A stretch of 55,000 nucleotides of DNA from an uncultured Pelagibacteraceae bacterium. Lineage in GTDB: Bacteria; Pseudomonadota; Alphaproteobacteria; Pelagibacterales; Pelagibacteraceae. The position numbers and the translations under genes are program-made. The notes under the pieces are model-generated. The model saw only the letters and a list, made by a program, of their open reading frames with translations, searched no databases and had not been told where the DNA came from. How positions within the stretch are numbered: position 1 is the first letter of the stretch; the number at the start of each line of letters is the position of its first letter. The stretch lies in contig CABXOW010000010.1 in assembly GCA_902513955.1 (NCBI GenBank), forward strand, positions 1 through 55,000, given 5' to 3'. Positions 5,787-53,509 of this stretch are shown here, piece after piece.

Positions 5787-6236
5787 TTAATGTTTATTAG
5801 TTATATATTCATAAGATTCTCTATTAATCTTGCAAATACCACCCTGAAAATATAATCCATATTTTTCTTTGTTTTTAATAAAGTCAAGATTATCAATATG
5901 ATCTTTAATAGTTATTTCATCTTTAAATATTTTTAAACCTTCAAACTGAACATAAAATAGAACTTGTTTGAATTCTTGATTGGGATCAATATCTGTTACT
6001 TTATTTTCAATAATATTTTTAATCTTAGCAGATCCAATAAAACTTTGTCTTTTGTTACCAGCTCCTGCAATATAAAACACAACATTTTTTCCTTCTTTTA
6101 CATTTTGTAGTTGTGGTGTTTTGTTGTAAATAGGCCATTTATTTTCTTCTATTCTTTCATTGAAAATATCTAGTCCTGTTTTCTTCCCGTCAGAAGAAAC
6201 AAATATTAAATAATTAGTTTCAATATTATCTCTCAT
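5787..6236 (-). CDS. EVE-domain (PUA-like) protein
   Basis: A 149-residue protein that fits the EVE/PUA-like fold, a family thought to bind modified bases in nucleic acids. Family-like features are NYLIFVSS near the N-terminus, the central VKEGKNVVFYIAGAG, QSFIGSAKI, and a C-terminal YGLYFQGGI. It is transcribed away from the DNA cytosine methyltransferase at 6283, with 46 bases between the two starts, so they may share a control region. EVE proteins often accompany methylation-linked restriction genes, so a role as reader of the methylated base is plausible. That role is inferred, and only the fold-type call rests on sequence. Confidence 0.65.
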   Translation of the reverse strand: MRDNIETNYLIFVSSDGKKTGLDIFNERIEENKWPIYNKTPQLQNVKEGKNVVFYIAGAGNKRQSFIGSAKIKNIIENKVTDIDPNQEFKQVLFYVQFEGLKIFKDEITIKDHIDNLDFIKNKEKYGLYFQGGICKINRESYEYITNKH

Positions 6237-6282
6237 TACATAGAATCATATACAAGGTTAATATTAATTATAAATAAAAAAA

Positions 6283-7263
6283 ATGAAAACACTAGGTGGC
6301 TTATTTTCAGGTATAGGAGGTATAGAAAGTGGCTTTGAAAAAGCTGGTTTTAAGACCTTGTGGTCTAATGAGAATGATCCTTATAGCGTTAGAAGCTTTA
6401 AACATAATTATAAACATCAGTTATATGCAGAAGATATTAGGAAAGTTGATTTTAAAAAATTAAAGCCAGTCGATGTTCTAGTGGGTGGATTTCCTTGTCA
6501 GGCTTTCTCAGTTGCTGGGTACCAAAAAGGTTTTAAAGATCCAAGAGGTAATCTATTTTTTGATATTTGTAGAGCTATTACAGAATTACCTAAAATGCCT
6601 AAGGCAGTAATGCTTGAGAATGTTAAAAATATTAGAGGTCATGATGGTGGAAAAACTGCAAAAGTAATCACTAAATCTTTGAGAGACTTAGGTTACTCAG
6701 TTTTTTGGAATGTATTTAATACATCCGTTCATACAGATATTCCTCAAAATAGAGAAAGAACATTTATTATAGGCTTTAAAGATGAAGTTGATTGGGATTT
6801 TGAACCTAATAAAAAAACATCAAGTTCTATATTTAATTCCCATTTACCTTTGGCAAAAAGTAAAACTAAAAAAAAGTTTAGAGAGATGTTAGAGAGCGGT
6901 GAGGTTGAGGAAAGATATTATTATAAACAAAACTCTTACATGTACAAAGATCTTAAAAAATCAATTAACTCCAAAGATACAGCCTATCAATGGCGTAGAA
7001 TTTATGTGAGAGAAAACAAAAGTAATGAGTGTCCAACACTTACAGCTAATATGGGAACAGGAGGACATAACGTTCCTTTAATTAAAGATGATCTAGGTAT
7101 TAGAAAACTTACTCCAAGAGAGTGTTTAAATTTTCAAGGTTTCCCTAAAAGTTTTAAGTTTCCAGATGATATGCCTGTTTCTCAAAGATATAAGCAAGTA
7201 GGGAATGCTGTTACAGTTACTTTGATTGCTAAGATTGCTAAAATTATTTTAAAGTCTTTATAA
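6283..7263 (+). CDS. DNA (cytosine-5) methyltransferase, type II restriction-modification
   Basis: A 326-residue Dcm-like enzyme that transfers a methyl group from SAM to C5 of cytosine in DNA. The conserved motifs appear in order: motif I GLFSGIGGIESGF (about residue 6), motif IV with the catalytic cysteine GGFPCQAFSVAG (about 68-79), motif VI LENVKN, motif VIII PQNRERTFIIGF, and motifs IX-X LTPRECLNFQGFP and QVGNAVT. The target-recognition region between VIII and IX is short. Its last six bases overlap the end of the convergent nuclease gene at 7258, the probable restriction partner. Confidence 0.93.
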   Translation: MKTLGGLFSGIGGIESGFEKAGFKTLWSNENDPYSVRSFKHNYKHQLYAEDIRKVDFKKLKPVDVLVGGFPCQAFSVAGYQKGFKDPRGNLFFDICRAITELPKMPKAVMLENVKNIRGHDGGKTAKVITKSLRDLGYSVFWNVFNTSVHTDIPQNRERTFIIGFKDEVDWDFEPNKKTSSSIFNSHLPLAKSKTKKKFREMLESGEVEERYYYKQNSYMYKDLKKSINSKDTAYQWRRIYVRENKSNECPTLTANMGTGGHNVPLIKDDLGIRKLTPRECLNFQGFPKSFKFPDDMPVSQRYKQVGNAVTVTLIAKIAKIILKSL

Positions 7264-7824
7264 CTTTCCAACCTTTATTGGCTTAAGATTTTTCTTTACT
7301 ACCAAAGTGCCTCTAATTTCAAATCTTGGTCTTTTCTCACCTTTTTGTTGATCAGTTAGCTTTTCTTTTTTATTTACCTTAACATTATCGATATCATCAT
7401 TTTCTAGTTTATATATTTTGTAAGTACCATCGATCTTACCTTCACTTTTAAAGTCAATAAAATATATTTCATCATATTCTGATCTGGGGCCAAAACTTGT
7501 TGGTCCTGCTGAAGCTGAGCATTTAATCTGAATCCTTTTGTCCCTTTTAGTATCATAAGCATCAAATGAAGTACTGTAGCCAGACTTTTTTTTTGCACTC
7601 AATAATTTACCACAGTTCATTTCAAAACAAAAAATTGCTTCAGATAATGACTCTGGAAAATTAATATTTCTAGTACCTTTCAAATCATTTTTAACATATT
7701 TATTAAGTTTTTGTAGTTTCTTAAAAACTGATTTAAAAATTTTTAAATCTGACTTATCAAAAGTCATTAGATTTAATATTACTGTCTTGTTATTATGCGC
7801 TAACTCATAATTAATGGTTTTCAT
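7258..7824 (-). CDS. Probable type II restriction endonuclease (Bsp6I-like, PD-(D/E)XK)
   Basis: The 188-residue protein resembles the Bsp6I-type restriction nucleases, known for cutting GCNGC. The pieces that point there are NFPESLSEAIFCFEMN (about 55-70), FDAYD (87-91) followed by QIKCSAS (99-105), and SFGPRSEYDEIYFIDF (110-125). D88 and Q99-x-K101 would form a QxK variant of the PD-(D/E)XK site. The convergent overlap with the m5C methyltransferase supports a restriction-modification pair. The family call comes from memory of the family pattern, not a search. The specificity is a prediction. Confidence 0.6.
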   Translation of the reverse strand: MKTINYELAHNNKTVILNLMTFDKSDLKIFKSVFKKLQKLNKYVKNDLKGTRNINFPESLSEAIFCFEMNCGKLLSAKKKSGYSTSFDAYDTKRDKRIQIKCSASAGPTSFGPRSEYDEIYFIDFKSEGKIDGTYKIYKLENDDIDNVKVNKKEKLTDQQKGEKRPRFEIRGTLVVKKNLKPIKVGKL

Positions 7825-8478: not shown

Positions 8479-9012
8479 ATGGCATCAAAAAAACAAATCA
8501 TTGCTAATCAAAATAACTCTAAAAAATCAACAGGACCATTTAGTAAATTAGGCAAATTAAAATCAAGTCAAAACTCAATCAAGCATGGATTGACATCAAA
8601 ACAATTAATTATTGGAGAAGATATTAGTCAATTTGAAAATTATCGTGACAGAATGACTAATGAACTGAAACCCATTGGTATATTGCAAGAAGAAGTCGTT
8701 TTTAAAATTATAGATACAGGTTACCGTTTAAGAAGAATTGGTGAAGTTGAAGCTGGAATTTATAATCAAGAAATTCTTCATTATGAAGCAGACGATTATA
8801 AAGAGGTAATTGCATCTAAAATAGATTTTAAGGATGAAGACAGTAATATTTTAAAATCATCTAACCACAGTGTAAATCTTAAGGGTCTTGCTTTTGCCAG
8901 AGATGCTAATCATGGAAGCGCTATTTTAAAACTAAATACGATCGAGGATCGTTTGTTGAACAAGTATTATAAGTTACTTGATAAACTTGAGCTAATGAAA
9001 GGTAATATCTAA
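8479..9012 (+). CDS. Hypothetical protein with terminase-small-subunit-like N-terminus
   Basis: The 177-residue protein starts with a lysine-rich pattern (NSKKSTGPFSKLGKLKSSQN followed by KHGLTSK) seen in a widespread family of uncharacterised proteins of phage-like or mobile contexts, some annotated as small terminase-like. The middle is helical (LKPIGILQEEVVFKIIDTGYRLRR) and the rest is unremarkable. The start is set by a strong AGGAGG six bases upstream, rare in this genome. Its stop overlaps the next start by one base, so translation is probably coupled. I cannot name a function. Confidence 0.6.
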   Translation: MASKKQIIANQNNSKKSTGPFSKLGKLKSSQNSIKHGLTSKQLIIGEDISQFENYRDRMTNELKPIGILQEEVVFKIIDTGYRLRRIGEVEAGIYNQEILHYEADDYKEVIASKIDFKDEDSNILKSSNHSVNLKGLAFARDANHGSAILKLNTIEDRLLNKYYKLLDKLELMKGNI

Positions 9013-9470
9013 TGACTTGGAGAAAAAACAAAAATTATCATACTAATTATAGTGCAAAATGGAGAAATAGTTCACTTGGGAAAACGAACCCAAATCATCG
9101 GTACTTTTCAAGATTACTTAAAAAAGAAACGAATGATTATTTAACTTCAAACAAAGAGTACTTGTTAGCTAATGAACCTGAAATTTATTACTCAATGAAA
9201 GGTCAAAAATTACCAAAAAAATATCAACAAAAACAAGGAATTTGTATCACACCAGTTAATGCCTACGTATCACCTCAATCAAAATTAAATTCAAATGAGC
9301 TCAGGCAAGAAAATAAAAGAAAAGAAATGATTAAACAAAGAAATCAAAATGCTTATGCTAGAGAGCAAAGTTATATTCGTTGGGTTAATCCATTTACACC
9401 GATTAATCATAATAAGTTAGGATCCTCGCAAGCTTGGAAAATTGAAAAAAAGTACAAGTATTATGATTGA
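9012..9470 (+). CDS. Hypothetical basic protein, 152 residues
   Basis: The protein is strongly basic and rich in Asn, Lys, Tyr and Gln, with no membrane segment and few acidic stretches. This composition would suit nucleic-acid binding. No family is recognised. The ATG overlaps the stop of the preceding gene (TAATG), and the MGME1-like exonuclease gene follows 31 bases after the stop, so the three genes look like one transcription unit. Confidence 0.6.
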   Translation: MTWRKNKNYHTNYSAKWRNSSLGKTNPNHRYFSRLLKKETNDYLTSNKEYLLANEPEIYYSMKGQKLPKKYQQKQGICITPVNAYVSPQSKLNSNELRQENKRKEMIKQRNQNAYAREQSYIRWVNPFTPINHNKLGSSQAWKIEKKYKYYD

Positions 9471-9501
9471 AAATGATTATGTTATAAATTAATCAATCAT
9501 T

Positions 9502-10194
9502 ATGAAGTTAAATACTAAGTTTCAATATCCACCCTCAATGAGATCTATTTATAATGGATCTAGACATTATGAGGTAGGTGGGGAAAAACTACCAAGCGTA
9601 ACGACCATACTTTCACTGACCAAAAGCCAAAAAGATAAAGATGCATTGAATCGGTGGAAAAAAGACGTCGGGCTTGCAAACGCAACTGCTATTGCTAAGT
9701 CATCTAGTGACCGTGGCACAAGCATGCACTCTTATGTCGAGGCAATACTACTAGGTCGAATGAACGGTGAGTTGATTGAAGAGGTTAATTTACCCAAAAA
9801 AATGGCTGAAACTATAGTAACAAACGGCATTAATGATCATGTTGATGAGATTTACGGCTGCGAAGTAGTGTTACATTATCCAAACTTATACGCTGGAACT
9901 GCTGATGCCATTTCTAATTTTGATTCAAAAATGGCGGTATTGGATTTCAAACAAAGTAATAAGCCAAAGCAACGTGAGTGGAGTTCTGTAAACGAGTACT
10001 TCCTCCAACTTTGCCTATATTCGATGGCACACGACAAAGTATATGGGACTAACATTAAGACAGGGGTTATTTTGATGTGCACTCCAAATTTACTTTTTCA
10101 AAAATTTGAAATAGAAGGCCAGGAATTTGAGAATTTAAAAGGTGAAGCTATGAGAAGAGTAGATGCCTATTATGAATTAAAAAATAATAGCTAA
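9502..10194 (+). CDS. MGME1-like PD-(D/E)XK exonuclease, phage type
   Basis: The 230-residue protein has the layout of the single-strand exonucleases related to MGME1/RecB nuclease domains that are common in marine T4-like phages. Visible parts are LPSVTTIL (30-37), the helix RGTSMHSYVEAIL with the conserved His, AGTADAISNFDSKMAVLDFKQSN with the catalytic Asp pair and the DFK triad, and YFLQLCLYSMAH. The DNA is clearly richer in G and C than its neighbours, with codons such as GTC GGG and GAC CGT, which supports recent transfer, probably from a phage. Its end overlaps the convergent gene at 10191 by four bases. Confidence 0.72.
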   Translation: MKLNTKFQYPPSMRSIYNGSRHYEVGGEKLPSVTTILSLTKSQKDKDALNRWKKDVGLANATAIAKSSSDRGTSMHSYVEAILLGRMNGELIEEVNLPKKMAETIVTNGINDHVDEIYGCEVVLHYPNLYAGTADAISNFDSKMAVLDFKQSNKPKQREWSSVNEYFLQLCLYSMAHDKVYGTNIKTGVILMCTPNLLFQKFEIEGQEFENLKGEAMRRVDAYYELKNNS

Positions 10195-10388
10195 TTTTTT
10201 TTTTCAATTACAATACGACCATTATCCTCAGAAAACTTAAATATAGGTTTAATATCTGTAGTTAAAATCTTAAGTTTAGTCTCATTATTATTCTCAGATT
10301 TAACTAGTACCATATATCTACAGCCCGCATCATTCATAGCTTGTTTTTGAATTTCAATTTCTATTTTTTCTGATTTAACAATAGTCAT
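10191..10388 (-). CDS. Hypothetical protein, 65 residues
   Basis: A small soluble protein of alternating charged and aliphatic residues (EKIEIEIQKQA, RYMVLVKSE, KLKILTTDIKPIF, GRIVIEKKN), which looks like a mostly beta fold. No family is recognised. It begins one base after the stop of the exonuclease I homologue and is therefore almost certainly co-transcribed with it and with the S24-type regulator upstream. It may be an accessory subunit of that nuclease, but this is only suggested by position. Confidence 0.55.
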   Translation of the reverse strand: MTIVKSEKIEIEIQKQAMNDAGCRYMVLVKSENNNETKLKILTTDIKPIFKFSEDNGRIVIEKKN

Positions 10389-10389
10389 A

Positions 10390-11835
10390 TTATTTTAAAT
10401 ATTTTTCATGTTCAGATGCAGTCATCTCTAAATGTTTATTTATATTTTCAATAATTTTTAATTTTTCAGGATCATCTTTTTTTTCAACTCTAAGGTTATC
10501 AATACGTGCCATACCATCAGTTATTGTTGGAAAAGTTTCTTTGTTAGTAGAAAGCAATCTTCTACTTATACCTTTTCTAATTCTTGAATATTCAGTTTTT
10601 GTAAAAGGTTCGTCATCAAATCTATCAAGCAATATCATTTCAGATAAATGTTTAATAGGACCTTTGAAATTTTGATGAATTTTTTTCTGTTCATCCATAG
10701 AGTTTGCCATGACAAAATGATTCATTAATGTTTTGTCAGTTGGGGAAGGATTTAATGTAAAGATCATTTGTTCAGGAAGTAATTCAGTTTGATCCAAATC
10801 CTGACTTTCAAATTGGTCACTTATAATTAAGCTAACTCTGTTAGCAAGCTCTTTTCTATTTTTAATTATAAAGTTTGCTCTTTGTTCTAATATTTCATGT
10901 CCGAGTGTTGTATATTGATCTCCATAATTTGTGGCAAAAGATTTATCTTGAATGAATGGATTCTTATTAGCTTTTATAGTTCTATATTTTTTTGGGGCCC
11001 CATTAAGAACTTTCTTTAAAACTTCATTAGATTTTTCCGAAAACATTGCTTCAGGATCATGTTTTAAATCAAAAACTAAATGATAACCTTTATACACAGG
11101 ATGTTCACAAAGATAACTTGAAGTAAATTGTCTAGTTCGACCAAAAAACGTTTCAGGGTGACAAAAGTAATCAACATCTTTTATACTAGGTAAAACATTT
11201 TTTTTATCATTAAGGCTAATACATTTTTTAAACAATTCTGGATTTTTCTTATTTACTAATTCCATCAATCTACTCATTCCCCATGTATCTGCGTCACTAG
11301 TATGGGCTTTATCTCCTAGGTCAAAACCATTCATTCGGCATAAGCTACCTAATTTAAAGGTTTTATTTGATTTTTCATTCAACTCGACTGCAATTGAATT
11401 TGGAGCGTAAAAATCAAAATTTTGTAGAATCGGTAAAGAGTCTATTTGTTTGGCGTTTCCTGTTGAAAAGATCCAAGGCCATGTAAAGAGATTGGTAAAA
11501 AGGTGCGTAGATGTTAGCATATAGTCGAACTGATATCCATTATGTGCACAAAACAATACAGGCCCTTTATTTATCCAGGAGATAAATTTATCATTAGTTT
11601 TTTTTGTTAAATCAAAATTAGAGAAGGGGTGTTTATCAACTTCAAAAGGATCCATTCCATTTACTAAAAAACTATCTATCTCATATATTCTAGATTTTCT
11701 AAGACGAGCTGCACAATTAAATTCTTCAATTAATTTAAAATTTTTATCAACAAATAATGCTGAAATAGTTAAAATATCAGCATGTGATCGACCTGAATTT
11801 GTTTCACAGTCAAAAAATATATAATTATAATCCAT
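10390..11835 (-). CDS. sbcB: Exodeoxyribonuclease I-like DEDDh nuclease
   Basis: At 481 residues it matches E. coli exonuclease I (475) in length and layout. The DEDDh active site is visible: D9 and E11 in FFDCETNS, D104 in AHNGYQFDYM, H178 and D183 in KAHTSDADTWG, with the same His-plus-five-Asp spacing as ExoI. ExoI degrades single-stranded DNA 3' to 5' in recombination and mismatch repair. It starts one base after the stop of the regulator gene, so the two form one operon. ExoI is not a usual core gene beside folC, and placement in this island suggests an acquired copy with a role tied to the switch. The gene symbol reflects homology only. Confidence 0.8.
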   Translation of the reverse strand: MDYNYIFFDCETNSGRSHADILTISALFVDKNFKLIEEFNCAARLRKSRIYEIDSFLVNGMDPFEVDKHPFSNFDLTKKTNDKFISWINKGPVLFCAHNGYQFDYMLTSTHLFTNLFTWPWIFSTGNAKQIDSLPILQNFDFYAPNSIAVELNEKSNKTFKLGSLCRMNGFDLGDKAHTSDADTWGMSRLMELVNKKNPELFKKCISLNDKKNVLPSIKDVDYFCHPETFFGRTRQFTSSYLCEHPVYKGYHLVFDLKHDPEAMFSEKSNEVLKKVLNGAPKKYRTIKANKNPFIQDKSFATNYGDQYTTLGHEILEQRANFIIKNRKELANRVSLIISDQFESQDLDQTELLPEQMIFTLNPSPTDKTLMNHFVMANSMDEQKKIHQNFKGPIKHLSEMILLDRFDDEPFTKTEYSRIRKGISRRLLSTNKETFPTITDGMARIDNLRVEKKDDPEKLKIIENINKHLEMTASEHEKYLK

Positions 11836-11836
11836 C

Positions 11837-12943
11837 TTATGCAGTTTCCTTTTCTAAAAGCTTATTAGTTATTATTTTTTCTTCTGAAAATAAATCGGGA
11901 GTGTCATTAATATATTTTTCAAATTTTATATCTTTAAAGTTATTACATTTCCAAACAACTTCACCAAATATGCTTAGATCTTCCAGAGCAACGTTCTGAT
12001 CACTATAATTCTTATTATCTGAAATAATTGTAACTAAAGTTCTCTTAGGTAGTTTTAAAAATTGTAATCTTCTTATAGAAATTTTTTCATTAATATTTAA
12101 TGCATAAATACCATCTTCGTATTTTTTTGATGAAATATTATTTTTAAATTTAACTATTAATGCAATATCATTTTTATTAAATGTTCCTTGCATATTATCT
12201 TCATCTACATTCATTAAAACTAAATCGTTATATTTTTTTATATTTAAATTTCTTTTTATGAAATCTTTTGAAAACAAAATTTTTTCATTTGAATTTAAAA
12301 CAGGTAGTTTAAAAGTTTCATGTGGTGCAACAAAGTTTTCCATATAATGTTTTCTCAAAATTTCAGCATGAGGGAAAAAATTTTTTATAGATTGTTTTAG
12401 TTTTTGATTTTGAAGATATTTGTTAGCTTCTTTGTAACCAACTCTTGATCCTTCTTCAAATCCATTTCTGTAATCATCATAGTCATCAATAGATTCTTGA
12501 ATACCAGGTAGTGCCTGATTAATGTATTCTTTTTCAAAGTTATAAGTATCATGAATATATTGTGAATTTGATAATTTAATTAAGAGCATACAATGATGTT
12601 CTAAACATGGAATAATTAATTTTTTTACTATTTCTAAATCTTCACAGTCTGTAAGTAGTTTATAAAACTCATGGTTATTTACGTGATCTAATTTTTTAAA
12701 ATATTGAAATTTACTTATTTTTTGAGACTTATCTCGGTTAGTAGTTTGAGAAGATGAAACTGAACTAAGGAAAAAATAAGCAAAACTAGGTGGAAAGCTA
12801 ATATCTGAGTATTTATAAATATATGTATCTAGGGATTTTTGATGCCTTCCCAATAATCGACTACATTCAGCCTTAGTCAAATCTGATAACTTTAGTGCTT
12901 TAAGCAGTAATTTTCGGTTTTTTTCGTTAATTATTGTATTCAT
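11837..12943 (-). CDS. LexA/CI-like regulator with degenerate S24 domain
   Basis: The 368-residue protein has an N-terminal helix-turn-helix-like region (about 20-40, LSDLTKAECSRLLGRHQKSLD), a long helical middle, and a C-terminal domain (about 220-335) laid out like the S24 domain of phage repressors. Landmarks are ILFSKDFI, NKNDIALIV, DGIYAL, ISIRRLQF, IISDNKNYS and IFGEVVWKC. The catalytic serine of the GDSM-type motif is N250 (VDEDNM) and the catalytic lysine is R291 (IRRL), so self-cleavage should be impossible. It is divergent from the twin-hairpin operon and probably binds the palindrome at 13011-13029. It heads an operon with the ExoI homologue. Confidence 0.75.
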   Translation of the reverse strand: MNTIINEKNRKLLLKALKLSDLTKAECSRLLGRHQKSLDTYIYKYSDISFPPSFAYFFLSSVSSSQTTNRDKSQKISKFQYFKKLDHVNNHEFYKLLTDCEDLEIVKKLIIPCLEHHCMLLIKLSNSQYIHDTYNFEKEYINQALPGIQESIDDYDDYRNGFEEGSRVGYKEANKYLQNQKLKQSIKNFFPHAEILRKHYMENFVAPHETFKLPVLNSNEKILFSKDFIKRNLNIKKYNDLVLMNVDEDNMQGTFNKNDIALIVKFKNNISSKKYEDGIYALNINEKISIRRLQFLKLPKRTLVTIISDNKNYSDQNVALEDLSIFGEVVWKCNNFKDIKFEKYINDTPDLFSEEKIITNKLLEKETA

Positions 12944-12972
12944 TGGTTTAATTGATTCTTTATATATAATAC

Positions 12973-13001
12973 TTTATATAGAAGTAAAATTTATTTGTAA
13001 A
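12973..13001 (-). promoter_or_regulatory. Probable promoter of the regulator-ExoI operon
   Basis: On the minus strand TTTACA (12996-13001) and TATAAA (12973-12978) are separated by 17 bases, a good sigma-70-like pair. Transcription would begin near 12966, about 22 bases before the ATG at 12943. The palindrome at 13011-13029 lies about 10 bases upstream of this -35 element, so the regulator could affect its own promoter. Confidence 0.55.
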
Positions 13002-13010
13002 TAGATATTT

Positions 13011-13029
13011 TTACTGTTGACAACAGTAA
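13011..13029. promoter_or_regulatory. Perfect 19-bp palindrome, likely operator
   Basis: TTACTGTTG and CAACAGTAA form a perfect nine-base inverted repeat around a single central A. The centre overlaps the consensus -35 TTGACA of the rightward promoter. It lies between a phage-type regulator gene and the divergent operon, the classical position of a repressor operator. The regulator at 11837-12943 is the obvious candidate binder. Half-site-like CTGTTG also occurs in both hairpin loops downstream (13105-13111 and 13186-13192 area). Confidence 0.65.
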
Positions 13030-13045
13030 TATTAGTGTATATATA
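13017..13045 (+). promoter_or_regulatory. Consensus promoter of the twin-hairpin operon
   Basis: A perfect -35 TTGACA (13017-13022), a 17-base spacer and TATATA (13040-13045) are visible. Transcription should start near 13052, about 10 bases before the first hairpin. The -35 sits inside the palindrome at 13011-13029, so a bound repressor would exclude RNA polymerase. Confidence 0.6.
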
Positions 13046-13062
13046 AGTTTTAATGATTAAAA

Positions 13063-13213
13063 ATATTGAAAGCTTTAGTTCTCTTCATTCCTTTCTTTCT
13101 ACTTTCTGTTGGAAGAGCTTAGGCTTCAATATCTCATTATCATATATTGAAAACTCAGGTTCTCATTTTTCACTCCTTGTTCCTTTCTGTTGTGAGGATC
13201 TGAGCTTCAATAT
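13063..13213 (+). ncRNA. Two tandem 70-nt hairpins (structured leader or small RNA)
   Basis: Hairpin 1 spans 13063-13132 and hairpin 2 spans 13144-13213. Both are exactly 70 bases, 81 bases apart, opened by ATATTGAA and closed by TTCAATAT. Inner stems differ in sequence yet still pair: CTCTTC with GAAGAG in the first, CTCAG with CTGAG and then TTCTCA with TGTGAGG (two G-U pairs) in the second. Both loops are pyrimidine-rich and share TTTCTGTT. Such paired changes argue for a selected structure rather than coding sequence. The RNA starts at a consensus promoter and leads into the operon beginning at 13228, so it may be a cis leader, a processed small RNA, or both. No known family is recognised. 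Confidence 0.6.
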
Positions 13214-13227
13214 CTTAAATAGGGCTT

Positions 13228-13542
13228 ATGAAAGATAAATATTATTACGTTCTAAAAGATTGCCTTACTCATCGAGAGAATTGGGCAAATGATCAAAAAA
13301 ATTATCTAAAATTTAGAGGTTTGATTGCTGAAGCAAAAAAAAGAAGGTTTAAAGAGAATAAACTTATATTTACAATCTATAGTTTAATTTATCTACCCAT
13401 CATAACACTTAATTTTTTTCAAAAGATTCGAGAACACTCTCAATATCACAAGGCTCTCAGTGAAATTGAGGTTTTAAAAGAAGAGTTAAATAAATATGAG
13501 GTGCCACAAATCAAATATAGGAGGAAAAATGCCGAAAATTAA
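13228..13542 (+). CDS. Small protein with one membrane segment, 104 residues
   Basis: The first gene after the twin hairpins. The N-terminal 45 residues are basic and aromatic (KDKYYYVLKDCLTHRENW), residues 46-64 (LIFTIYSLIYLPIITLNFF) could cross the membrane, and the rest is a short coiled-coil-like helix (ALSEIEVLKEELNKY). No family is recognised. The ATG is 15 bases after hairpin 2, with only a weak AGGG upstream, so the hairpin could control access to the start. The 3' end overlaps the next gene by 14 bases. Confidence 0.6.
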   Translation: MKDKYYYVLKDCLTHRENWANDQKNYLKFRGLIAEAKKRRFKENKLIFTIYSLIYLPIITLNFFQKIREHSQYHKALSEIEVLKEELNKYEVPQIKYRRKNAEN

Positions 13543-13903
13543 AAAAAATAGTAAAAAAAAATCATCTAACGTTATTCCTATTAATAAAAATATAGTAGAG
13601 GCAGAAAATGCTACTCAGTTGTTATCTATAGAAGACCAGGAGCGCGAAAGAACTAATAAATTTGCTAGAAAAATATGTGATGAAATTGATGAGTTTGTTA
13701 AAGAATGTAAAATGAATAGTGATTTTACCTATTATCATTTTCTTTATCACATAAAACAACGTACGATATTACAAGTATCATATGGATTATTTAAACATGT
13801 TAATGAAGCTTCAACTGATGAAGTTACAAAAAATATGTCTGAATATTTAAATGAAAATGCACCAGAGTTGAAATTAGATGCAGCAAACAATACAATACAA
13901 TAA
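13529..13903 (+). CDS. Hypothetical protein, 124 residues
   Basis: The start is placed at 13529 because a strong AGGAGG precedes this ATG by five bases; an upstream in-frame ATG at 13496 has no such site. The N-terminus is very basic (MPKIKKNSKKKSSN), followed by a helical acidic body (DQERERTNKFARKICDEIDEFVKECK, then YYHFLYHIKQRTILQVSYGLFKH). No membrane segment and no known family. It lies between the membrane protein gene and the RmuC-like gene, 12 bases from the latter, and is most likely part of the same operon. Confidence 0.6.
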   Translation: MPKIKKNSKKKSSNVIPINKNIVEAENATQLLSIEDQERERTNKFARKICDEIDEFVKECKMNSDFTYYHFLYHIKQRTILQVSYGLFKHVNEASTDEVTKNMSEYLNENAPELKLDAANNTIQ

Positions 13904-13915
13904 AGGAATCAATTA

Positions 13916-15109
13916 ATGAATTTAATCACAATATTAGTAACAGCAATACTAACATCTATTCTTTGGGTAGCTTACATTAAGTTTTTTCAAAAAAAAGATA
14001 ACTCTGAAGAAATTGAAAACTTAAGATTAAAAGATGAAGAGCTTAAAAATCAGAAACATCAAATGGAATTATTAGAGGCTGAAAAAAATTCAGAGGCTGA
14101 TTTATTAAAAGAAAAAATTAATAGTCTTGAGAAACTTAAAAGTAATGTTGAAGGTAGTTTAAAAACTGAGAGAGAAACTAGTGCAAATCAGCTAAAAACA
14201 TTAGGAAAAGTGGATGATTTCAAAACTGCCGTGACAACTGATGTGGCCGAGCAATCTAAAATGATTAAAAATCAGCAGACATTTATTGATAAACTTACTG
14301 GAAATGCAAAATATCAAGGAGATTTTGGTGAAAAATTTCTAGAGCAATCATTACAATTTCATGGTTTCAAACTTGGTATCGATTATACCAAACAAAAAAA
14401 AGAAGAAGTTCTAAATATTGAGGATGATACCACTCAAACAGTTAAGCCAGATATAGTAATAAATTTATCTGATGGTAATCATATTATATGTGACTCAAAA
14501 GTTTCTTTAGATAATTGGAAAAAATTTGTTAATGCAGCAGATGATCAAGAAAAAGATGAGCAATTTAAAAAGCACGCTCTAGCTGTTAGAAAACACATTG
14601 ATGATCTTTCAAGAAAAGATTATATGAAAAATTTAAAGAAAGATGTCTTTGAAAAAGTAATTATGTATATGTGTCATGAGGCGGCTTATTTAGCAGCTTT
14701 AGAACATTTTCCAGATCTTTACGAATATGCTTATAAAAAGAATATATTGTTAGTAGGGCCTAAAAACTTGCTGGCAATAATTTCCATTGTTCAAACAATT
14801 AAAGGAAAAGAGAAACAAATAAACGGGGTAAAAGAAATTACAGATACTGCTACTCACTTAATGGACAAATATTCAGTTTTAAAAAAGTATCTTATTCAAA
14901 CAATGACCAGTTTTAATAGTCATGGAGAAAGTTTAAAAAAAGTTATTAGTGGTGCATGGGCTGGAAAAAGTAGCTTGGAACAAAGAATTGAAAAATTACA
15001 AGATCAGGGAATCAATCCTTCCACTCCAATACCCAAAACAAATCCCATCCAAGATAAATTAGTAGAGTTTGAGGAAAATTTAACTAAGGATAAAGATAAT
15101 CTAAATTAA
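13916..15109 (+). CDS. rmuC: RmuC-like DNA recombination nuclease
   Basis: The 397-residue protein has the RmuC order of parts: an N-terminal membrane anchor (about 3-24), a coiled coil (about 30-95), and the RmuC nuclease domain. The domain is seen as YQGDFGEKFLEQSLQFHGF, then VKPDIVINLSDGNHIICDSKVSLDNW with the PD-(D/E)XK-type residues, KDVFEKVIMYMCHEAAY and a C-terminal LEQRIEKLQDQG. In E. coli, RmuC limits recombination at inverted repeats. This copy sits third in the operon driven from the twin-hairpin promoter. Whether it is the genome's only rmuC cannot be told here. Confidence 0.82.
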   Translation: MNLITILVTAILTSILWVAYIKFFQKKDNSEEIENLRLKDEELKNQKHQMELLEAEKNSEADLLKEKINSLEKLKSNVEGSLKTERETSANQLKTLGKVDDFKTAVTTDVAEQSKMIKNQQTFIDKLTGNAKYQGDFGEKFLEQSLQFHGFKLGIDYTKQKKEEVLNIEDDTTQTVKPDIVINLSDGNHIICDSKVSLDNWKKFVNAADDQEKDEQFKKHALAVRKHIDDLSRKDYMKNLKKDVFEKVIMYMCHEAAYLAALEHFPDLYEYAYKKNILLVGPKNLLAIISIVQTIKGKEKQINGVKEITDTATHLMDKYSVLKKYLIQTMTSFNSHGESLKKVISGAWAGKSSLEQRIEKLQDQGINPSTPIPKTNPIQDKLVEFEENLTKDKDNLN

Positions 15110-15123
15110 AACATTAGAATAAT

Positions 15124-15588
15124 ATGGACAAAAATCCAGATAATTTAAAATTACTTGATGATAAGCCAAGTGATTTTTTAGATGCAGATGAGTTTATTTC
15201 TTTTTGCTTAAAGAAAAAAATTTTAATAAAGCGAAAAGATAATCTCCCAAGATTTTGCAGATCAAATGGTATTAAAATGGTCAAAATTAAACGTGAAGGA
15301 TCTGGTGGATCAGTACCTACTGTTTATAAAATTCTTAGTGAAACAAAAATAAAAGAAATTATTGATAAACTTAAAGATAATAATAATAGTCTTTTAGGAA
15401 GAGAAATACTTAAAAAGAAAAAAGAAAAAATACTAGAAATTTTTGATAAAGCAGAACCCGACAAAGAAACCAAAACATCTATTGCTTTAAAAGTTTCACA
15501 AATTATTGGTGTATCTTGTAACAGAAAATTAGTTAAAAGTGTTTTAGACCAAAAAAGATCGTCCAAAATAAACAAATTACAAAAATAA
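15124..15588 (+). CDS. Hypothetical protein, 154 residues
   Basis: Last gene of the operon, 14 bases after the RmuC-like gene. The first 60 residues include LDADEFISFCLKKKILIKRKDNLPRFCRSNGI, and a Gly-Ser-rich turn GEGSGGS-like piece (REGSGGSVPT) separates this from a lysine-rich helical C-terminal half. No membrane segment or known family is seen. The basic charge is compatible with nucleic-acid binding, but this is a guess from composition. Confidence 0.6.
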   Translation: MDKNPDNLKLLDDKPSDFLDADEFISFCLKKKILIKRKDNLPRFCRSNGIKMVKIKREGSGGSVPTVYKILSETKIKEIIDKLKDNNNSLLGREILKKKKEKILEIFDKAEPDKETKTSIALKVSQIIGVSCNRKLVKSVLDQKRSSKINKLQK

Positions 15589-17231: not shown

Positions 17232-18164
17232 TTATGATGCTTCCCTAGTAAGCGATTGAGAAACTTCTGAAGTTTCATTTTGTTCAGAACTTATAACAGA
17301 ATTTTGCTTTAGCAATATTGATAAAAGGGTTCCTAGAGTTGGGTGTATATCTTTTCTATCAAGCACCATATCTATCTGTCCACCTTTTTTCTGAGCCCAC
17401 TCTACAGTTTGAAAATTTTCCGGTAATTGACTTTTTTCTGTATTTTCTACAATTCTTCGACCTGCAAAAGCCCAAGTTGCACCCGTCTCACCTATACAGA
17501 CATCAGACAAAGAAGCTATCGAAGCTGTTAAGCCACCAGTTGTTGGACTTGTAGCAACCACAATATAAGGAAGATTATGTTTACGAAGTTCATTAATTCC
17601 GACCGTCATGCGGGTCATTTGCATAAGGCTTAGCATATTAGTCATCATACGCATTCCTCCAGAAGCACTTATAAAAATATAAGGACATTTTTTATTTATG
17701 GCTACCTGTATTGAAGCAAGGACATTTTCTCCCTCTGCCATTGAAATTGATCCGCCAATAAATTTAAAATTTACAGCACTAACTACTACTTCAATGTCAT
17801 TAATTTTAGCCTCACATGATAATATTGCATTATCTTGACCAGTAATTTTTTTTGCATCTTTTAAACGATCGGTATATTTTTTTGTATCTTGCCAATTGTA
17901 AGGATCTGGTGGAGGTTGAGGACTTTCAATTTTTTGCCAATTATTTTTTCCAAACATAATATCGAATCTTTGTGTTGGAGATATATAATGGTGCTTGTTA
18001 CAACTAGCACATACAAAAAGATTATTTTCTAAATCTTTTTTTAAAATTGGTCCTTTACAACAACTTGTCCAATCACTTTTTGCAATATCCTCTTTTGTTG
18101 CTCTTTCATGGAAGGCAGTTTTAATTTTCTCTCCTGCCTTGATTATTTTAGTTATCCAATTCAT
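17232..18164 (-). CDS. accD: Acetyl-CoA carboxylase carboxyltransferase subunit beta
   Basis: Together with AccA it transfers the carboxyl group from biotin carboxyl carrier protein to acetyl-CoA, the first step of fatty acid synthesis. The 310-residue protein shows an N-terminal zinc-ribbon-like segment, then the carboxyltransferase core with FKFIGGSISMAEGE, SASGGMRMMTNM and PTTGGLTAS. The ribbon is irregular: the first cysteine pair is adjacent (WTSCCKG) instead of CxxC, while the second pair (CASC) is normal. The gene is next to trpA and folC, an order also seen in other alphaproteobacteria. Confidence 0.95.
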   Translation of the reverse strand: MNWITKIIKAGEKIKTAFHERATKEDIAKSDWTSCCKGPILKKDLENNLFVCASCNKHHYISPTQRFDIMFGKNNWQKIESPQPPPDPYNWQDTKKYTDRLKDAKKITGQDNAILSCEAKINDIEVVVSAVNFKFIGGSISMAEGENVLASIQVAINKKCPYIFISASGGMRMMTNMLSLMQMTRMTVGINELRKHNLPYIVVATSPTTGGLTASIASLSDVCIGETGATWAFAGRRIVENTEKSQLPENFQTVEWAQKKGGQIDMVLDRKDIHPTLGTLLSILLKQNSVISSEQNETSEVSQSLTREAS

Positions 18165-51938: not shown

Positions 51939-53413
<1,475 letters not shown>

Positions 53414-53509
53414 CTAAGGATGAATGAAAGTAAAATTTCATTCTAAATAATATACAGGTAATGTTGACCGTCCTCATTTCTCTTCTTAAATAGTGTTTCT
53501 CTTGCATGG

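Follow-up and report, generated by a model that had tools for sequence, protein, structure and literature searches.

Three described systems come closest to the element presented here. The cuckoo RNAs of alphaproteobacteria (RFMSmelA075/A099 and CcsR, in Rhizobiales and Rhodobacter) combine variable stems with a conserved loop word, CCUCCUCCC, that resembles an anti-Shine-Dalgarno (anti-SD) sequence. As described in the available parts of the sources (PMC3927594, PMC4504443, PMC10253847), they have two to four hairpins whose helices are not conserved in sequence, are associated with a DUF1127 gene and carry a Rho-independent terminator at the 3' end. The DUF1127 uORF attenuator of S. meliloti consists of a translated leader upstream open reading frame (uORF) with an inner pyrimidine-rich element and a masking hairpin; this uORF has its own ribosome-binding site (RBS) and is separated from the gene by a gap (accessible text of PMC12218461). 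Finally, the SAR11 candidate RNAs of Meyer et al. (2009) include a motif beside the S24-like gene SAR11_0635, a three-stem junction that its authors regard as a separate non-coding RNA (PMC2704228, as far as available). Leaderless mRNAs are frequent in Caulobacter (375; PMC4117421).

The present element lies at the head of an operon in the window, by which is meant the whole stretch of 55,000 nucleotides that was analysed; the genome assembly to which it belongs measures 1.2 Mb. The relevant features are:

11837-12943, minus strand: divergent CI-like repressor with an S24-like C-terminal domain, according to domain matches
13011-13029: perfect palindrome TTACTGTTG-A-CAACAGTAA over the -35 box, an inverted repeat in the sequence whose core also occurs in the related loci L085, L087 and L092
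13017-13022, plus strand: putative -35 box TTGACA, a consensus match only
13040-13047, plus strand: putative -10 region, a consensus match only; TATATA at 13040-13045 (spacer 17) by reading, or TATAAG at 13042-13047 (spacer 19) by best score
13053-13238, plus strand: leader ORF of 61 codons, with its AUG 5-7 nt past the -10 box and an 11-nt overlap with the next gene
13063-13132, plus strand: hairpin H1, from inverted repeat, RNA fold and covariation
13089-13096, plus strand: loop octamer of H1, the shared 8-mer TCCTTTCT
13144-13213, plus strand: hairpin H2, from inverted repeat, RNA fold and covariation
13181-13188, plus strand: loop octamer of H2, the shared 8-mer TCCTTTCT
13228-13542, plus strand: first structural gene (104 aa), without a Pfam family; an all-helical structure is predicted at a mean pLDDT of 83
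13529-13903, plus strand: 124-aa gene, no Pfam family above cut-off; used to find relatives
13916-15109, plus strand: RmuC family gene (PF02646, 1.1e-51)
53408-53415, plus strand: 16S rRNA gene of the same genome, 3' tail: reference copy of the octamer by sequence identity, outside the element

With the cuckoo RNAs the element has in common the variable stems and the conserved anti-SD-like loop word, again in an alphaproteobacterium. The word itself is different, being UCCUUUCU in the RNA: the cuckoo-type CCTCCTCCC occurs in none of the 19 hairpins that were found, while TCCTTTCT is present in all of them. The stems vary and covary, and two hairpins are present only in the window, one in the other loci. 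DUF1127 is absent from the Pfam matches of ten window proteins or ORFs at 8479-15588, and the hairpins, with no following terminator seen by eye, sit in a uORF at the 5' end of the mRNA. The element resembles the cuckoo RNAs but lacks defining features of that family. The S. meliloti attenuator is similar in its leader uORF, its inner pyrimidine-rich element and its masking hairpin, whereas the present leader is apparently leaderless, has a uORF that overlaps the gene and displays an exact loop word. The motif beside SAR11_0635 comes from the same group of organisms and is set apart by its description, not by alignment. No Rfam family covers H1 or H2 at its gathering score (matches of 16.8, 15.4 and 14.6 bits against gathering scores of 90, 45 and 38), in agreement with the original prediction, whose author knew of no described family of such design in SAR11. 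Likewise, the accessible part of the open literature on UCCUUUCU-type words, cuckoo RNAs and CCUCCUCCC, anti-SD leaders, leaderless and small RNAs in SAR11, and RmuC holds no description of the element.

Twin hairpins and their relatives

H1 and H2 are both 70 nt long and start 81 nt apart, which makes the duplication frame-preserving (27 codons). As predicted from the sequence beforehand, they share the closing arms ATATTGAA/TTCAATAT and the loop motif TTTCTGTT, while their inner stems are unlike in sequence and yet paired in both copies. Folded as RNA with two additional bases on each side, H1 reaches -18.3 kcal/mol (z -3.65) and H2 -22.6 kcal/mol (z -5.65); none of 200 dinucleotide shuffles folds as well as either of them, and the minus-strand folds are weaker (-13.1 and -15.6). 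H1 begins 10 nt past the A of the leader ATG, near the predicted transcription start. The gap between the 3' end of H2 and the ATG at 13228 is 14 nt. Inspected by eye, without a terminator scan, these 14 nt contain no U-run, and they leave little space for a separate terminator.

Relatives were collected by three routes: repressor homologues, homologues of the 124-aa protein and a blind octamer pattern. Among 300 genomes of the genus searched with the repressor, the four closest carry one hairpin each at the same position. Seven distant operons found in this way (L050-L056) have no leader hairpin; a single octamer of L050 sits in a weak hairpin of the opposite strand. In GTDB species genomes, homologues of the 124-aa protein led to 16 loci, 15 of which have a leader hairpin with TCCTTTCT in the loop, the exception being L089. 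Because the octamer had served to select the loci behind three of the eight query proteins (L075-L077), this outcome is partly circular for group B (L090-L093), but not for group A (L078-L088), where all 11 loci have the hairpin with the octamer. Seven of the 15 loci (L078, L083, L084, L087 and L090-L092) repeat the leader regions of L047, L046, L048, L049, L076, L077 and L075, respectively. A pattern of two octamers gave five matches in 397 genomes of the family, four of them leader hairpins (L073 and L075-L077) and one, L074, opposite a coding gene; 297 genomes of the order, many shared with the set of 397, gave only L073 and L074 again. The reversed control pattern occurs 19 times, so that the octamer word is not enriched as such. 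One further case, L012, was spotted by eye among homologues of the 104-aa protein; there and in L073 the element precedes other operons.

Altogether, 18 distinct loci carry 19 hairpins. All homologous loci come from records of uncultured Pelagibacteraceae, presumably single-cell genomes, and this fits the placement in SAR11 given in the original prediction. Since all relatives are from a single order, many of them close to one another, the counts do not represent independent events. Other homologues of the 104-aa or 124-aa proteins (L013, L014, L064-L066 and L068) are without the element, the single octamers of L013, L064, L066 and L068 lying outside such hairpins. L014 has, on the reverse strand at about 1146-1200, a 17-bp hairpin without octamer ahead of an operon with a 104-aa homologue, which is perhaps a different leader solution. 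At the level of DNA similarity, a comparison of the leader across 101 relatives gave, besides the window itself, only short and weak matches.

Six of the 19 hairpins, the window pair and four relatives, have matching arm lengths and could be aligned. In this alignment 96.4% of the cells are paired, against at most 55% in slid controls, and six of the 19 pairs show changes in both partners. Within group B, L093 has U-A in place of one G-C pair, and the remaining pairs are nearly invariant; here, shuffles score as high in 114 of 500 cases. The octamers of L073 are situated within a larger, weaker fold (z -2.62). The plus strand is more stable than the minus strand in 18 of the 19 hairpins, and 12 representative hairpins contain 26 G-U pairs on the plus strand versus six on the minus strand. 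A covariance model built from the six hairpins recovers the non-training loci L078, L080, L082, L083 and L084 at E-values of 0.0003 to 0.02, L079 and L081 at only 0.22 and 0.29; L012, L073 and the group B hairpins are beyond its range. In 389 genomes of the genus, searched with strict filters that lose weak matches, it found the window pair, G109, G310 and two weak extras opposite coding genes.

Both the compensating stem changes and the plus-strand fold support the initial view of a duplicated structured RNA heading an operon. Homologues that keep the 61-codon frame and lose the stems, named at the outset as the pattern that would speak against it, did not turn up: the homologues retain a stem that is spanned by an open frame, with variation in the sequence of the stem and in the peptide.

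The loop octamer and the 16S rRNA tail

No 8-mer other than TCCTTTCT is common to the nine non-redundant leader groups (the window and eight others), and there is no common 9-mer. None of 300 shuffled sets had any 8-mer common to all nine groups, and without group B the octamer is still the sole 8-mer common to the remaining eight. The loop motif TTTCTGTT of the original prediction is present, but it merely overlaps this conserved word. The 19 hairpins hold 28 copies, several loops having two or three. For 22 copies the fold prediction leaves every base unpaired; in the group of L078 and L082-L084, four of the eight octamer bases are paired.

The 3' tail of the 16S rRNA gene in this genome, GGATTACCTCCTTTCT, ends with a sequence identical to the octamer. 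The octamer starts within the anti-SD core (CCUCC) and does not cover it. Pyrimidine words being few, this match is suggestive rather than a proof. RNA-seq-defined 16S tails reach GAUCACCUCCUUUCU in some other bacteria and end earlier in others, according to the available part of PMC6288834. The octamer is complementary to AAAGGA, which ranks first by frequency among seven SD hexamers counted in a crude set of 741 first-ATG ORFs of at least 120 aa from 844 kb of the same genome (22 ORFs versus 6.8 expected). By ratio, GAAAGG (10 versus 2.4) and AAGGAG (10 versus 2.6) stand slightly above it, and AGGAGG is near background (1 versus 0.6). These 844 kb contain 21 copies of the octamer, and of the hairpins around them those of the window pair are by far the strongest.

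The idea that the loops touch purine-rich RBSs of their own operon, part of the original prediction, found no support. The RBS of the first gene pairs no better with the loops than with shuffled loops (P 0.14-0.94, 13 leaders), and the same holds for the RBS of the second gene (P 0.10-0.91, nine hairpins), for which the proposed AGGAGG lies at 13519-13524 and not at 13521-13526. Shuffled pyrimidine loops also pair with purines, so the power of this comparison is low. L079 and L012 have no evident SD ahead of the first gene, as judged by eye.

A proposed translated leader and its alternatives

Three features had escaped the original prediction: the octamer matches the 16S rRNA tail, the start is apparently leaderless, and the uORF overlaps the next gene. 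In 17 of the 18 leaders a uORF of 30-61 codons is open across the hairpin or hairpins, as in a uORF-dependent attenuator or coupled leader, with its AUG 5-7 nt past the predicted -10 box and an overlap of 4, 8 or 11 nt with the next gene. The 18th, L073, offers no more than 28 codons from a GTG, with 26 nt between the end of this frame and the next gene. The spacing of 5-7 nt was first found with a window of 4-9 nt only; in a free promoter search allowing 2-40 nt, it is kept relative to the best-scoring -10 box in 15 of the 17 leaders (not in L079 and L081). The chance of an open frame amounts to 0.015-0.17 per leader in the ten leaders tested. Gene overlap is common in this compact operon, so that the uORF overlap alone is weak evidence. 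Judging from the sequence, the mRNA would start at or beside the uORF AUG and be leaderless. In the distant operons without hairpin, the first gene begins 6-7 nt past the best -10 box in six of seven cases, and the leaderless start may therefore predate the hairpin.

We propose that the element is a cis-acting, translation-coupled uORF leader that displays an anti-SD-like octamer in a repressor-controlled RmuC operon, a reading to which we assign a probability of roughly one half. The transcript would start at or next to the AUG of the small uORF, which would pass through one hairpin (two in the window) and stop within the start region of the first gene. Ribosomes on the uORF would melt the hairpin and deliver themselves to the first gene. 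If the uORF were untranslated, the hairpin would close and UCCUUUCU would be exposed in the pyrimidine-rich loop, where it could serve as a docking site for a second partner, either a purine-rich SD RNA or a factor that reads the rRNA tail. As an outcome, expression would track translation capacity. Action in cis with translational coupling is suggested by the uORF, which is open and overlaps the gene, and by the little space left ahead of the next start codon. The exact octamer in an exposed loop suggests a partner that likewise recognises SD sequences or the 16S tail. The sequence itself shows the predicted hairpins with their covariation and conserved position, the invariant octamer with its 16S identity and the open uORF; from there we infer the leaderless start, uORF translation, its coupling to the first gene and any partner of the octamer. 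Since pairing with the operon's own RBS is unsupported and L079 and L012 lack an evident SD, the partner may be either another RNA or a protein.

The leader, or a piece processed from it, might act in trans as a cuckoo-like anti-SD sponge that pairs through UCCUUUCU with the SDs of other mRNAs and blocks their translation once the operon is on. The octamer, as a part of the 16S tail that complements AAAGGA and is present in several copies in several loops, would be suited to this, and perfect partners exist: on the minus strand of L102, at about reverse-strand position 17325, AGAAAGGAG, a perfect partner of CUCCUUUCU, ends 4-5 nt ahead of the ATG of an ORF judged by eye to be Hsp20-like. However, a coding transcript that opens with one or two hairpins, shows no terminator to the eye and has an overlapping uORF fits action in cis better. 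Furthermore, AGAAAGGA stands upstream of only three of 853 ORFs, in one case 22 nt from the ATG, and with 21 occurrences in 844 kb it is rarer than four rearranged words (29-61), so we consider a sponge rather unlikely. We are as doubtful about the pyrimidine loop being a protein site, whether for Rho loading in a translation-dependent attenuator or for a cold-shock-type or other RNA-binding protein. The loops are pyrimidine-rich with one to four CTTTCT words, and C exceeds G in nine of 17 leaders, but not in the other eight; an exact octamer with free flanks has a specificity above that known for Rho sites, and no candidate protein was identified. A precedent for such regulation is provided by the DUF1127 gene of S. 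meliloti, which stands under a uORF with a maskable C-rich element, presumably by Rho-dependent attenuation (PMC12218461, accessible text).

It is very improbable that the uORF encodes a functional small peptide and that the hairpin is incidental. The frame is open in nearly all leaders, and the uORF pN/pS of 0.10 in the group of L078 and L082-L084, near the 0.06 of a control gene, could reflect a constrained peptide; the value is 0.67 in group B, and L086 and L087 differ by zero synonymous and three nonsynonymous changes. Against this, the octamer is in frame 0, 1 or 2 of the uORF, depending on the leader, so that selection acts on nucleotides, the peptides differ between groups, the stems covary and L073 has no such ORF. 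No more credible is an element acting as DNA, either as an operator array for the repressor or as a recombination or transfer hairpin. It is an inverted repeat and adjoins the divergent repressor gene, but the better folding of the plus strand and its excess of G-U pairs point to RNA, and the separate palindrome over the -35 box is a more natural operator.

With the proposed coupled leader, one of the ocean's most abundant bacterial groups would gain a new structured leader element, and the study of translation regulation in bacteria with weak SD usage a small testable system. It suggests that a cuckoo-like design, with free stems and a fixed anti-SD-like loop, is possible inside a coding leader. 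One could go further and imagine, although we think it quite unlikely, that the loop functions as a copy of the 16S tail. A chromosomal island in SAR11 would then turn on a leaderless, SD-independent mRNA whose 5' hairpins, as decoy anti-SD tails, hit SD-led mRNAs of the host or tail-reading factors and thereby bias translation to the island.

Repressor, operon and neighbourhood

The palindrome at 13011-13029 is probably the operator of the divergent repressor. In the S24-like domain of this repressor, a motif scan of 16 sources gave matches in eight, with EDNM in seven of them (DDYM in L093) and RRL in all eight. Both motifs stand where LexA-type repressors carry their catalytic Ser and Lys, and the repressor is probably not self-cleaving. 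Its C-terminal half resembles proteins from Vibrio phage records, the best 20 of 39 being 13-15 kb long, which would be about the size of satellites. A phage origin of the operon was rejected, the 104-aa and 124-aa proteins having no match in phage records or viral contigs.

The genes of these two proteins overlap in the window, and the predicted structure of the 104-aa protein has no PDB match at an E-value of 0.001 or better. After the repressor, on the minus strand, follows a relative of exonuclease I (10390-11835). Together with RmuC, it matches the PADLOC models of reverse-transcriptase-associated SbcB and RmuC. An RNA linked to a reverse transcriptase was discarded as a candidate, as the genome itself (83% complete) gave no RVT_1 match. 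A type III toxin-antitoxin system seemed unlikely, most loci having a single hairpin and no toxin being recognised. Beside the exonuclease and RmuC block, an EVE-domain protein, a C5 DNA methylase and a Bsp6I-like restriction endonuclease (5787-7824) form a defence-like island. A PD-(D/E)XK-like exonuclease at 9502-10194 resembles exonucleases of phages (phrog_298, 6e-43).
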